DNA of 64,000 nt from contig NZ_FOWQ01000001.1 in NCBI RefSeq assembly GCF_900115505.1, positions 558,001-622,000 on the forward strand. The letters are read 5' to 3'. This DNA is from Geodermatophilus dictyosporus (GTDB lineage Bacteria > Actinomycetota > Actinomycetes > Mycobacteriales > Geodermatophilaceae). A program made the translations under genes and the position numbers. The notes under the pieces were generated by a model. The model had not been told where the DNA came from. It searched no databases and saw only the letters and a list, made by a program, of their open reading frames with translations. The stretch's first letter is position 1. Each line of letters opens with the position of its first letter. Of this stretch, positions 3,838-46,578 are shown piece after piece.

Positions 3838-3851
3838 CCGTTATCCCCAAC
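3838..3851 (+). promoter_or_regulatory. polar 14-base terminus motif, copy A
   Basis: Exact CCGTTATCCCCAAC on the + strand, in the gap before helY, 22.4 kb left of dif. It reads towards dif. See copies at 10286, 12430, 27624, 28048 and 46565. Confidence 0.75.
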
Positions 3852-3956
3852 TGGTCGCCCGACAGACCGTGGGGACGGGACGAGGAGGGGCCACGAGGAC
3901 GCGGGGGCACCCGCCGCCGATCTGAGAGCCGCCGCCGGTGCGCCTAACGTGGAGCC

Positions 3957-6806
3957 ATGTCCAGCCCCGCCGAGCGGTACGCGGCTGCCCGGCGGCGCAG
4001 CGCGCACCCCACCCTCGCCGACTTCACCGCCGAGCTCGGCTTCTCGCTCGACCCGTTCCAGGTCGAGGCGTGCGAGGCGCTCGACGAGGGCGCGGGCGTG
4101 CTGGTCTGCGCACCCACCGGCGCGGGCAAGACCGTCGTCGGCGAGTTCGCCGTGCACAAGGCGCTCGCCGAGGGCCGCAAGGCCTTCTACACGACGCCGA
4201 TCAAGGCGCTGTCCAACCAGAAGTACAACGACCTCGTCGACCGCTACGGCGAGGCCGAGGTCGGGCTGCTGACCGGGGACAACGCGATCAACGGCGACGC
4301 CCCGGTGGTGGTGATGACCACCGAGGTGCTGCGCAACATGCTCTACGCGGAGTCCCCGGCCATCGACGGCCTCGGTTACGTGGTCATGGACGAGGTCCAC
4401 TACCTCGCCGACCGGTTCCGCGGCGCGGTGTGGGAGGAGGTGATCATCCACCTCCCGGCGTCGGTGACCCTGGTGTCGCTGTCGGCGACCGTGAGCAACG
4501 CCGAGGAGTTCGCCGACTGGCTGGTCACCGTCCGCGGGCACACCCGGGTGGTCGTCAGCGAGGTGCGGCCCATCCCGCTGTGGCAGCACATGCTCGTCGG
4601 CAGCCGGGTGTTCGACCTGTTCAGCCTGCGCCCGGCCGCGCACGCCGCCGAGCACGGGGAGGACCCCCGCGGCCGCTCCACGCGCGACCGCGGCGGCAGC
4701 GTGGTCGACCCGGAGCTGGTGCGCTACGTCCGCGAGTACGAGCGCCGGCTGGACACCTGGGGTGGCGGCGGCACCGGCGGCGCCCGGCGCGACCGCGACT
4801 GGCACAAGCCGCGCTACCGGCCCCCGGCCCGCTCGGAGGTGGTCGAGCGGCTCGACCGCGCCGGGCTGCTGCCGGCGATCACGTTCATCTTCAGCCGCAA
4901 CGGCTGCGACGCCGCCGTCGCCCAGTGCCTGCAGTCGGGCCTGCGCCTCACCGACGAGGCCGAGCGCGCCGAGATCGCCCGGATCATCGACGAGCGCACC
5001 GGCTCGCTGCCCGACGAGGACCTGCACGTGCTGGGCTTCTGGGAGTGGCGCGAGGGCCTGCTCGCCGGGCTGGCCGCCCACCACGCCGGGCTGGTGCCGG
5101 CGTTCAAGGAGACCGTGGAGGAGTGCTTCGTCCGCGGCCTGGTCAAGGCCGTGTTCGCCACCGAGACCCTGGCGCTGGGCATCAACATGCCCGCGCGCAC
5201 CGTCGTCCTCGAGCGGCTGGTGAAGTGGAACGGCGAGGCGCACGTCGACGTCACGCCGGGGGAGTACACCCAGCTCACCGGCCGGGCCGGACGGCGCGGC
5301 ATCGACGTCGAGGGGCACGCCGTCGTCGTCTGGGCGCCGGGCATGGACCCCTCGGTGGTGGCCGGGCTGGCCAGCACCCGCACCTATCCGCTGCGCTCGT
5401 CGTTCCGGCCCAGCTACAACATGGCGGTCAACCTGGTGGGCAGCTTCGGCCGCGCCCGCGCCCGCGAGCTGCTGGCCTCCTCCTTCGCGCAGTTCCAGGC
5501 CGACCGCTCGGTGGTCGGCCTGGCCCGGGCGGCCGCCCGGCACGAGCAGGAGGCGGAGCGGGCCGCCGCCGAGATGCACTCCGACGGCGGCGACGTCGCC
5601 GGCTACGCGCGGCTGCGCCGGGAGATCGCCGACCGCGAGCGGGAGCTGTCCCGCGACTCGCAGGCCAAGCGCCGGATGGAGGCCGCCGACGCGCTGGCCG
5701 CGCTGCGGCCCGGTGACGTCATCCGGGTGCCCTCGGGACGACGGCAGGGGCTCGCCGTCGTCCTGGACCCGGGGATCACCGACCTGGCCGACCCGCGCCC
5801 GCTGGTGCTCACCGAGGACAAGTGGGCCGGCCGGCTGGGCAGCGTCGACTTCCCGACGCCGGTCTCCGCGCTGGCCCGCGTCCGCGTGCCGAGGAACTTC
5901 AACCACCGCAGCCCGCACGCCCGCCGCGACCTGGCCTCGACGCTGCGCGCCGCGCGGGTGGAGAACGACCTGGGCGCCCGCCGGGTCCGGCAGCGCTCCG
6001 CGGCCGCCGACGACCCGGTGCTGCACGACCTGCGCCGCGCCCTGCGCGCCCACCCGGTGCACGCGCTGCCCGACCGGGAGGACCGGGTACGGGCCGCCGA
6101 GCGCTACCTGCGCGGGGTCGCCGAGGCCGAGGCCACCCACCGGCGGATGGCCGAGCGCACCGGGTCGCTGACCCGCCAGTTCGACCGCACCTGCGACGTC
6201 CTCGAGGAGCTGGGCTACCTGGTGCCCGAGGTGGTGCCGCTGGTGCCCGCCGACACCGCCGAGGACGTCCCGGTCGACGACGTCCCCCGGGTCACCGACG
6301 AGGGACGGCGGCTGGCGCGGATCTGGTCCGACGGCGACCTGCTGATCGCCGAGTGCCTGCGCGCCGGGGCGTGGCGCGGGCTGGGCGCGGCCGAGCTGGC
6401 CGCCGCCGTCTCCACGCTGGTGTTCGAGGCGCGCCGCGAGATGCCGGGGCAGCCGGCGGTGCCGGCGGGCCAGGTCGCCACCGCCATCGCCGAGATGCGC
6501 CGCATCCGCGCCCGGCTGCAGGACGTCGAGCTCGACCGCGGCCTGCCGGCCACCCGCGACCTCGACCTGGGCTTCGCCTGGGCGGCCTACCGCTGGGCGG
6601 ACGGGCAGAGCCTGGACCGGGTGCTCGCCGGCGCGGAGCAGGCCGGCACCGAGCTCTCCGGCGGCGACTTCGTGCGGTGGGCGCGGCAGCTGGTCGACGT
6701 GCTCGACCAGCTGGCCAAGGTCGCCGACGAGCCGGTCGCCCGGGTCGCGCGCGCCGCGGTCGAGCGGGTGCGGCGGGGCGTGGTCGCGGTCGCCGTCAGC
6801 GGCTGA
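3957..6806 (+). CDS. helY: SKI2/MTR4-like DEAD/DEAH-box RNA helicase HelY
   Basis: A 949 aa ATP-dependent helicase. It has Walker A APTGAGKT at 52-59, the DEVH box at 145-148, motif III LSLSAT near 172-177, and motif VI in TGRAGRRGID near 440. A DSHCT-type C-terminal region follows, as in Mtr4/Ski2 and mycobacterial HelY (Rv2092c). The expected role is RNA unwinding in decay or ribosome biogenesis. The ATG at 3957 lies six bases after TAACGT (3945-3950), implying a leaderless transcript. The gene sits in its usual neighbourhood (tatC upstream, a DUF4333 protein downstream) but is separated from tatC by the lipid kinase and a repeat-bearing gap. Confidence 0.93.
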   Translation: MSSPAERYAAARRRSAHPTLADFTAELGFSLDPFQVEACEALDEGAGVLVCAPTGAGKTVVGEFAVHKALAEGRKAFYTTPIKALSNQKYNDLVDRYGEAEVGLLTGDNAINGDAPVVVMTTEVLRNMLYAESPAIDGLGYVVMDEVHYLADRFRGAVWEEVIIHLPASVTLVSLSATVSNAEEFADWLVTVRGHTRVVVSEVRPIPLWQHMLVGSRVFDLFSLRPAAHAAEHGEDPRGRSTRDRGGSVVDPELVRYVREYERRLDTWGGGGTGGARRDRDWHKPRYRPPARSEVVERLDRAGLLPAITFIFSRNGCDAAVAQCLQSGLRLTDEAERAEIARIIDERTGSLPDEDLHVLGFWEWREGLLAGLAAHHAGLVPAFKETVEECFVRGLVKAVFATETLALGINMPARTVVLERLVKWNGEAHVDVTPGEYTQLTGRAGRRGIDVEGHAVVVWAPGMDPSVVAGLASTRTYPLRSSFRPSYNMAVNLVGSFGRARARELLASSFAQFQADRSVVGLARAAARHEQEAERAAAEMHSDGGDVAGYARLRREIADRERELSRDSQAKRRMEAADALAALRPGDVIRVPSGRRQGLAVVLDPGITDLADPRPLVLTEDKWAGRLGSVDFPTPVSALARVRVPRNFNHRSPHARRDLASTLRAARVENDLGARRVRQRSAAADDPVLHDLRRALRAHPVHALPDREDRVRAAERYLRGVAEAEATHRRMAERTGSLTRQFDRTCDVLEELGYLVPEVVPLVPADTAEDVPVDDVPRVTDEGRRLARIWSDGDLLIAECLRAGAWRGLGAAELAAAVSTLVFEARREMPGQPAVPAGQVATAIAEMRRIRARLQDVELDRGLPATRDLDLGFAWAAYRWADGQSLDRVLAGAEQAGTELSGGDFVRWARQLVDVLDQLAKVADEPVARVARAAVERVRRGVVAVAVSG

Positions 6807-45533: not shown

Positions 45534-46496
45534 ATGGGCGGCGTGACGGCAGGGACCCGCACCCAGATCTCGCCCTACGCGGCGTTCGACCGCGCCACGT
45601 GGCGGGCGCTGGCCGGCGACCGGACGCTGCCGCTGGACGAGGCCGACCTGCGCGCGCTGCGCAGCCTCGGCGACCGCATCGACCTCGGCGAGGTCGCCAC
45701 CGTCTACCTGCCGCTGGCCGATCTGCTCGCCCTGCACGTCACCGCCAGCCAGCGGCTGTGGGCCGCACAGAGCCGCTTCCTCGGCGACACCACCGCCAAG
45801 GTGCCCTACGTCATCGCCGTCGCCGGGAGCGTGGCCGTCGGCAAGAGCACCACCGCCCGCCTGCTGCAGACGCTGCTGGCCGCCGGGCCGGGCTCACCGC
45901 GGGTCGACCTCGTCACCACCGACGGCTTCCTGTGGCCCAACGCCGTCCTCGAGCAGCGCGGGCTCCTGGCCCGCAAGGGCTTCCCGGAGAGCTACGACCG
46001 GCGGGCGCTGGTGCGCTTCCTCGCCGACGTGAAGTCCGGCCGCGGCGAGGTCAGCGCGCCGGTCTACTCCCACCAGAGCTACGACGTGCTGCGCGGGCAG
46101 CACCAGGTGGTCGACCGCCCCGACATCCTCGTGCTCGAGGGGCTCAACGTGCTGCAGGCCGGCCGCCGCGACGACGGCCGGGTGCCCGAGGTGTTCCTGT
46201 CGGACTTCTTCGACTTCTCCGTCTACGTCGACGCCGCCGAGTCCGACGTCCAGCAGTGGTACGTGGAGCGCTTCCTCGCACTGCGGCGCACGGCCTTCGC
46301 CGACACGTCGGCCTACTTCCACCGCTACGCCGGCCTCAGCGACGACGACGCCCGCGCCACCGCCCTGTCCATCTGGGACGCGGTCAACGGCCCCAACCTC
46401 CGGCAGAACATCACGCCCACCCGCTCCCGTGCCCGGCTGGTGCTGCAGAAGGCCGCCGACCACTCGGTGCGCCGCGTCCTGCTCCGCAAGCTCTGA
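45534..46496 (+). CDS. coaA: type I pantothenate kinase
   Basis: A 320 aa kinase catalysing the first step of coenzyme A synthesis. ISPYAAFDRATWRALAG marks the N-terminus, the P-loop is AGSVAVGKSTTAR (about 97-108), then TTDGFLWPN, KGFPESYDRRALVRFLADVKSG, YSHQSYDV and the C-terminal NGPNLRQNITPTRSRARLVLQKAADHSV. ATG at 45534 is listed; GTG at 45543 three codons later is equally plausible. No ribosome site is obvious. Single-gene unit. Confidence 0.95.
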   Translation: MGGVTAGTRTQISPYAAFDRATWRALAGDRTLPLDEADLRALRSLGDRIDLGEVATVYLPLADLLALHVTASQRLWAAQSRFLGDTTAKVPYVIAVAGSVAVGKSTTARLLQTLLAAGPGSPRVDLVTTDGFLWPNAVLEQRGLLARKGFPESYDRRALVRFLADVKSGRGEVSAPVYSHQSYDVLRGQHQVVDRPDILVLEGLNVLQAGRRDDGRVPEVFLSDFFDFSVYVDAAESDVQQWYVERFLALRRTAFADTSAYFHRYAGLSDDDARATALSIWDAVNGPNLRQNITPTRSRARLVLQKAADHSVRRVLLRKL

Positions 46497-46564
46497 CCGA
46501 CCCGCGGGGCTCCTCCCCTTCGCTGTTGTCCGGCCCCTGCCGCAGCCGATCTCTGCACGACACT

Positions 46565-46578
46565 GTTGGGGATAACGG
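46565..46578 (-). promoter_or_regulatory. polar 14-base terminus motif, copy E
   Basis: Exact motif on the - strand, 20.3 kb right of dif, reading towards dif, 68 bases after the coaA stop. Confidence 0.75.

Follow-up and report, generated by a model that had tools for sequence, protein, structure and literature searches.

Convergent sites confined to the chromosome terminus of Geodermatophilaceae and linked to a family-specific gene: a probable replication fork trap with a protein predicted to be recombinase-like

What purpose might be served by a short sequence whose copies all point to dif? The question is raised by a window of 64,000 nucleotides of Geodermatophilus dictyosporus (contig NZ_FOWQ01000001.1, positions 558,001 to 622,000), by which we mean the whole stretch of DNA analyzed here, and in which an earlier note had described a 14-base motif, CCGTTATCCCCAAC, reading toward dif from both sides. 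Our recount agrees with the six places, five exact and one with a mismatch, that were given for it. Left of the dif core (26206..26226, plus strand; C10:584206-584226), three exact copies on the plus strand point right to dif, at 3838..3851, 10286..10299, and 12430..12443, the last being the left innermost. Right of dif, three copies on the minus strand point left to it: the right innermost at 27624..27637, which departs from the motif only by a T for the C at position 11, the most frequent of the variants, and the exact copies at 28048..28061 and 46565..46578. That chance is an unlikely origin, as had been argued, is borne out by shuffled sequences, in which matches allowing two mismatches averaged 0.10 and reached seven in none of 100 shuffles; an extra two-mismatch match at 35553 (minus strand) looks like a chance occurrence. 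Overall, our observations reveal a system of several convergent sites that is confined to the terminus and linked to a gene specific to the family, and we think it probable that CCGTTATCCCCAAC is a one-way, Ter-like barrier to replication forks, predicted to be bound by the 285-amino-acid protein encoded at 11559..12416 on the minus strand.

Over the 4,690,050 bases and 16 contigs of the genome, CCGTTATCCCCAAC is found in eight exact and three one-mismatch copies, all on contig C10, and all 11 are aimed at dif (C10:584206). The exact copies span C10:485956 to C10:625913, that is, less than 140 kb of 4.69 Mb, and a pattern reading the motif in reverse has no match in this genome. Copies spread over the chromosome without strand bias, or an orientation tracking gene direction, were looked for and did not occur: the polarity follows the terminus. 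The further statement that the copies lie between genes holds for 3838, 10286, 12430, and 46565, the four that were checked against open reading frames and Pfam. At these four, the neighboring genes are tandem, divergent, or convergent (a diacylglycerol-kinase-type gene and a DEAD-box helicase gene flank the first, the second is upstream of a radical-SAM gene, and convergent open reading frames stand on either side of the last); flanking directions being thus mixed, gene direction does not account for the polarity.

The same layout is widespread in the family. Exact copies were detected in 92 of 112 Geodermatophilaceae genomes, belonging to 8 of 12 genera (none in g4, g5, g8, and g10), and in none of the 24 genomes from other families of the order; in the g4 genome G028, four 20-kb pieces making up 80 kb around dif hold no match with up to two mismatches. 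Most well-assembled genomes have two to nine exact copies, close to the terminus. To orient them, dif was located in 108 of the 112 genomes as a pattern match with at most two mismatches (a second match is weaker in G104, G113, and G131 and exact in G092, and the tallied dif of G027 has two mismatches). Counting copies on the same contig as dif, among the matches listed, we found that dif is the target of 140/140 copies in g1 (24 genomes), 48/48 in g12 (23 genomes), 76/76 in g6 (14 genomes), and 16/16 in the remaining genera except g11 (five genomes). The claimed flip exactly at dif therefore stands for 280/280 copies in 66 tallied genomes, which show what a fork trap shows, asymmetric sites in the terminus that form two groups facing each other, and it fails in genus g11, to which we return below. 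The tally leaves aside G006, G031, G130-G133, part of G026, and some low-completeness genomes, and 17 copies outside g11 and one within it are not orientable, being on contigs that lack dif. The distance from copy to dif, in 26 genomes, has a median of 17 kb and a maximum of 174 kb; G127 and G027 have copies several hundred kilobases away, still correctly directed. The innermost interval ranges from 10.8 to 38.9 kb across the 24 genomes of g1 and is 15 kb in the window (12443 to 27624). In six single-contig genomes (G017, G023, G024, G067, G115, and G121), dnaA and dif are separated by 46-53% of the chromosome, and the sites cluster opposite oriC.

Genus g11, a Blastococcus lineage, has as its usual set a convergent pair of sites with a gap of 146-152 bp, present in all 13 genomes for which it was computed out of 16 (six of the 13 use a one-mismatch member, and G095 was left out); G097 shows one member only and G094 neither, within one mismatch. 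In the nine genomes with dif on that contig, the pair lies 19.5-23.4 kb from dif. One member of each pair points away from dif, and therefore convergence, rather than aim at dif, is the constant feature of the system, a layout that is coherent with a fork trap and not with a dif-aimed signal. The AT skew of the interval is ambiguous as to where forks meet. At two loci (L015 10036-10186 and L016 10189-10340), GC-rich inverted repeats resembling small hairpins lie between the paired sites.

This pair argues against the view that the copies give polar signals, for loading or for stopping, to FtsK-type translocation or to Xer recombination at dif by means of an Xer-like protein, a view that we regard as improbable. 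In addition to the member facing away, only two of the 10 tallied g11 genomes (G035 and G088) show a copy on the far side of dif within the dif contig, and, whereas the known FtsK-orienting polar sequences (KOPS) are short and spread along the chromosome, the exact copies in G. dictyosporus are few and confined to the stretch given above. A terminus-region organizer resembling MatP with its matS sites has still less in its favor: terminus clustering and a dedicated protein would suit it, but matS is palindromic and directionless, when the present site is asymmetric and strictly polar, and two g11 sites 150 bp apart could hardly organize a domain.

In g11, the pair stands directly upstream of an open reading frame of 281 amino acids, the homologue of which in the window is the gene at 11559..12416 (minus strand; GTG start). 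The earlier note had not mentioned this gene, which starts 13 bases away from the 12430 copy; together with the g11 pair, it strengthens the fork-polarity reading that the note had put forward and that our results support. In all 89 distinct upstream stretches, the motif precedes the aligned start codon by 26-30 bases and in a single orientation (67 exact, 18 with one mismatch, and four with two), a position reached by shuffles in 3 of 4450 cases; a first pass of this test had given 47/47, and, by coordinates, an exact copy lies 13-24 bases upstream of the aligned start in 47 of 63 genes. A TANNNT box follows the site at a distance of 0-2 bases in 83 of the 89 stretches, and in the window the sequence TAAGGT (12423..12428, minus strand), a possible −10 box by prediction, is found between the site and the start codon; therefore, the protein, when bound, would probably occlude the promoter of its own gene. 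Fork traps are likewise marked by a gene for a dedicated protein that has a site around its promoter, the promoter activity being predicted here.

The distribution of the candidate protein follows that of the motif. It is found in 93 of the 112 family genomes, with a single match in each except G077 (g12), and is missing from g4, g5, g8, and g10, the genera that have no motif; G125 (72% complete) has neither protein nor motif. In G077, the gene is split over two frames (C2:58833-59664), which may reflect an assembly error or a broken gene, and the site copies are kept. In the sample of the order, no genome outside the family matches (43/298 genomes, all Geodermatophilaceae), and in the sample of the phylum 1/396 does, that of G. 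dictyosporus itself, with at most six candidates scored per genome among those listed. A wider profile search brought hardly any gain: of the roughly 8,000 candidates scored in each search, 504 proteins had E-values up to 10, against 490 with E-values up to 1e-3. Homologues and loci come under the names Geodermatophilus, Blastococcus, Modestobacter, Goekera, and Trujillonella. One homologue (P0131) has 509 amino acids, about twice the usual length, a fusion or a start-call artifact, and a record named "UNVERIFIED_ORG: Bacillus sp. AZ43" (SPQJ01000009.1; L177 1001-1843) encodes the protein with 83% identity, its organism label being probably wrong. In a DnaA tree (29 of 30 rows), g8, g10, and g5 are basal in the family and g4 has an unresolved place inside the rest, so that one gain and perhaps one loss would explain the genus pattern.

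A fixed promoter position upstream of its own gene would likewise be expected of a regulator of transcription whose regulon lies in the terminus region, a role of the kind that MrpR has for SPbeta. In the available extracts of the literature on it, MrpR shares the fold and binds repeated elements located between genes. MrpR (YopR), a protein of prophage SPbeta, and SroF of phage phi3T are phage repressors, for which the same extracts describe neither terminus clustering nor polarity. The mixed arrangement of neighboring genes at the four window sites checked speaks against a regulon, which moreover does not predict an orientation switch at dif in 280/280 copies, and we give this explanation little credence. 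As for a DnaA-box derivative titrating DnaA or acting through it, which the earlier note had raised on the likeness of TTATCCCCA to a DnaA box (that of Escherichia coli is one base away), it is very hard to sustain, given that TTATCCCCA is absent from 10 of 10 dnaA loci of 2.7-3.5 kb (part of oriC possibly falling outside them), that each of these carries one TTGTCCCCA, that the conserved unit is longer than TTATCCCCA and tied to another gene than dnaA, and that g4, g5, g8, and g10 have DnaA and no motif.

With regard to the nature of the candidate protein, its predicted model displays the tyrosine-recombinase fold, and we predict a Cre/Xer-like protein that is catalytically inactive, devoid of the full active site. 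A first AlphaFold model (50 sequences) was poor, with a predicted local distance difference test (pLDDT) of 62; its fold matches favored recombinases, and it was replaced by a second model. At residues 125-128, where a weak profile alignment places the first catalytic arginine, Arg or Lys occurs in 0 of 130 sequences, when His 214 is found in 130 and Arg 217 in 121; Y249 is replaced by Phe in 33 and Y246 is Tyr in 129, and either may be the nucleophile position. Like XerC and XerD, which are active tyrosine recombinases, the protein combines the predicted fold with a location near dif; unlike them, it has no match to PF00589, a family with 14 matches elsewhere in the genome, and the first catalytic arginine appears, from these alignments, to be absent.

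The mechanism that we propose is one in which this Cre/Xer-like protein would clamp a single asymmetric 14-bp site, about the length of one recombinase half-site, and not cut it. A fork coming from oriC would pass the sites of its own arm, cross the terminus, and halt at the first site facing the opposite way. Forks would then fuse inside the inner interval, from 12443 to 27624 in the window and over about 150 bp in g11, and the copy over the promoter of the candidate gene is predicted to let the protein repress itself. Taken together, it seems likely to us that this is a chromosomal fork trap of a third kind, which evolved independently of the other two and is the first of its phylum, Actinomycetota: an Xer/Cre-fold recombinase, having lost catalysis, would have been turned into a polar terminator acting at single 14-bp ter sites, each similar to a half-site, one of which controls the terminator's own gene. 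In the g11 lineage, the trap would have closed to about 150 bp, 20 kb off dif, its termination point being parted from the site of dimer resolution.

Several observations weigh against this proposal. Among g11 copies on the dif contig, 6/15 exact ones (9/21 with one-mismatch copies included) are aimed away from dif, and GC skew, computed over 80 kb in four g11 genomes, gave no usable switch to locate the meeting of forks. One-mismatch matches occur far from the terminus (e.g., G119 C1:3412705 and G121 C1:1953588), and look like chance ones. G094 (80% complete) has the protein and no exact motif; the stretch upstream of its gene (L066) holds a two-mismatch copy. The fold rests on a model, full-length template modeling (TM) scores being only 0.3-0.4 with domains packed differently, and a profile-profile comparison with local tyrosine recombinases was not significant (probability 0.6%). 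Finally, the co-occurrence of gene and motif across genera may count as few events, maybe a single gain and at most one loss; as evidence, the adjacency of gene and site and the many unrelated contexts of the sites outweigh it.

Around the core, 121 exact copies show a preference for A at −1, A/T at +14, and, more weakly, A at +15, and among 31 single-base variants the C-to-T change at position 11 (10 cases) and C to G at position 8 (nine cases) predominate. The A/T-rich stretch reported on the dif side is real on average: over 120 flank-distinct sites from the clade, the AT fraction is 0.37 on that side versus 0.29 on the other and 0.24 in the window (P about 1e-9). Of the 120 flank-distinct sites, 18, among them one in the window (12444-12470), have a GTGG 17-18 bases after the core, when, for the best pair of adjacent offsets, shuffles average 3.7 and reach at most 9; it is possibly a second contact of the protein, and the case for a fork trap does not need it. 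Adjoining dif, at 26276-27500, open reading frames resemble, by eye, pieces of two peptide-transporter permease genes, seemingly broken or fused.

We found no published description of this system among open-licence papers, where the 12-mer GTTATCCCCAAC occurs in six papers, whose titles are unrelated. Of the terminators already known, RTP has a winged-helix fold, and Pfam searches with 50 members of the candidate family (E-values up to 10) gave no match pointing to RTP, the genome itself not having been searched with the RTP family. The E. coli ter sequence differs from CCGTTATCCCCAAC, and the Tus family (PF05472) is found in 0/5 genomes, with a positive E. coli control, the candidate protein having no Pfam match. 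The clade as a whole offers natural experiments, with genera that have the system and genera that do not, two-site traps, and a lineage in which trap and dif are 20 kb apart; this variation makes the place where forks meet, be it the trap, dif, or the point opposite oriC, directly testable.

The available extracts of two papers (PMC10331603 and PMC13220808), on which the following comparison draws, bring the layout close to both known traps. As in the RTP-ter system of Bacillus subtilis, there are two opposed groups of asymmetric sites, and the gene for the protein has a site in its promoter (PMC13220808; PMC10331603); the innermost sites of that system, terI and terII, are about 0.1 kb apart, like the g11 pair (PMC13220808). 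RTP is a small dimer with two-part sites of 32 bp (PMC13220808), as opposed to a 285-amino-acid protein of predicted recombinase fold and a 14-bp core here. As in the Tus-ter system of E. coli, several polar sites surround dif, one at the promoter of the protein gene, and, as in the type I layout, this gene is often placed at an innermost site (PMC10331603); the Tus ter site has 23 bp (PMC10331603), against the 14-bp core. In these sources, fork traps characterize a small bacterial group, Tus and RTP are unrelated products of convergent evolution, and both of their genes are autoregulated via a ter site in the promoter (PMC10331603; PMC13220808). The Geodermatophilaceae layout matches this picture in its restricted occurrence, its unrelated protein, and its promoter site, and, if our proposal is true, a third trap, in another phylum and unrelated in both protein and site, would mean that such traps arise repeatedly and hence meet a general need.

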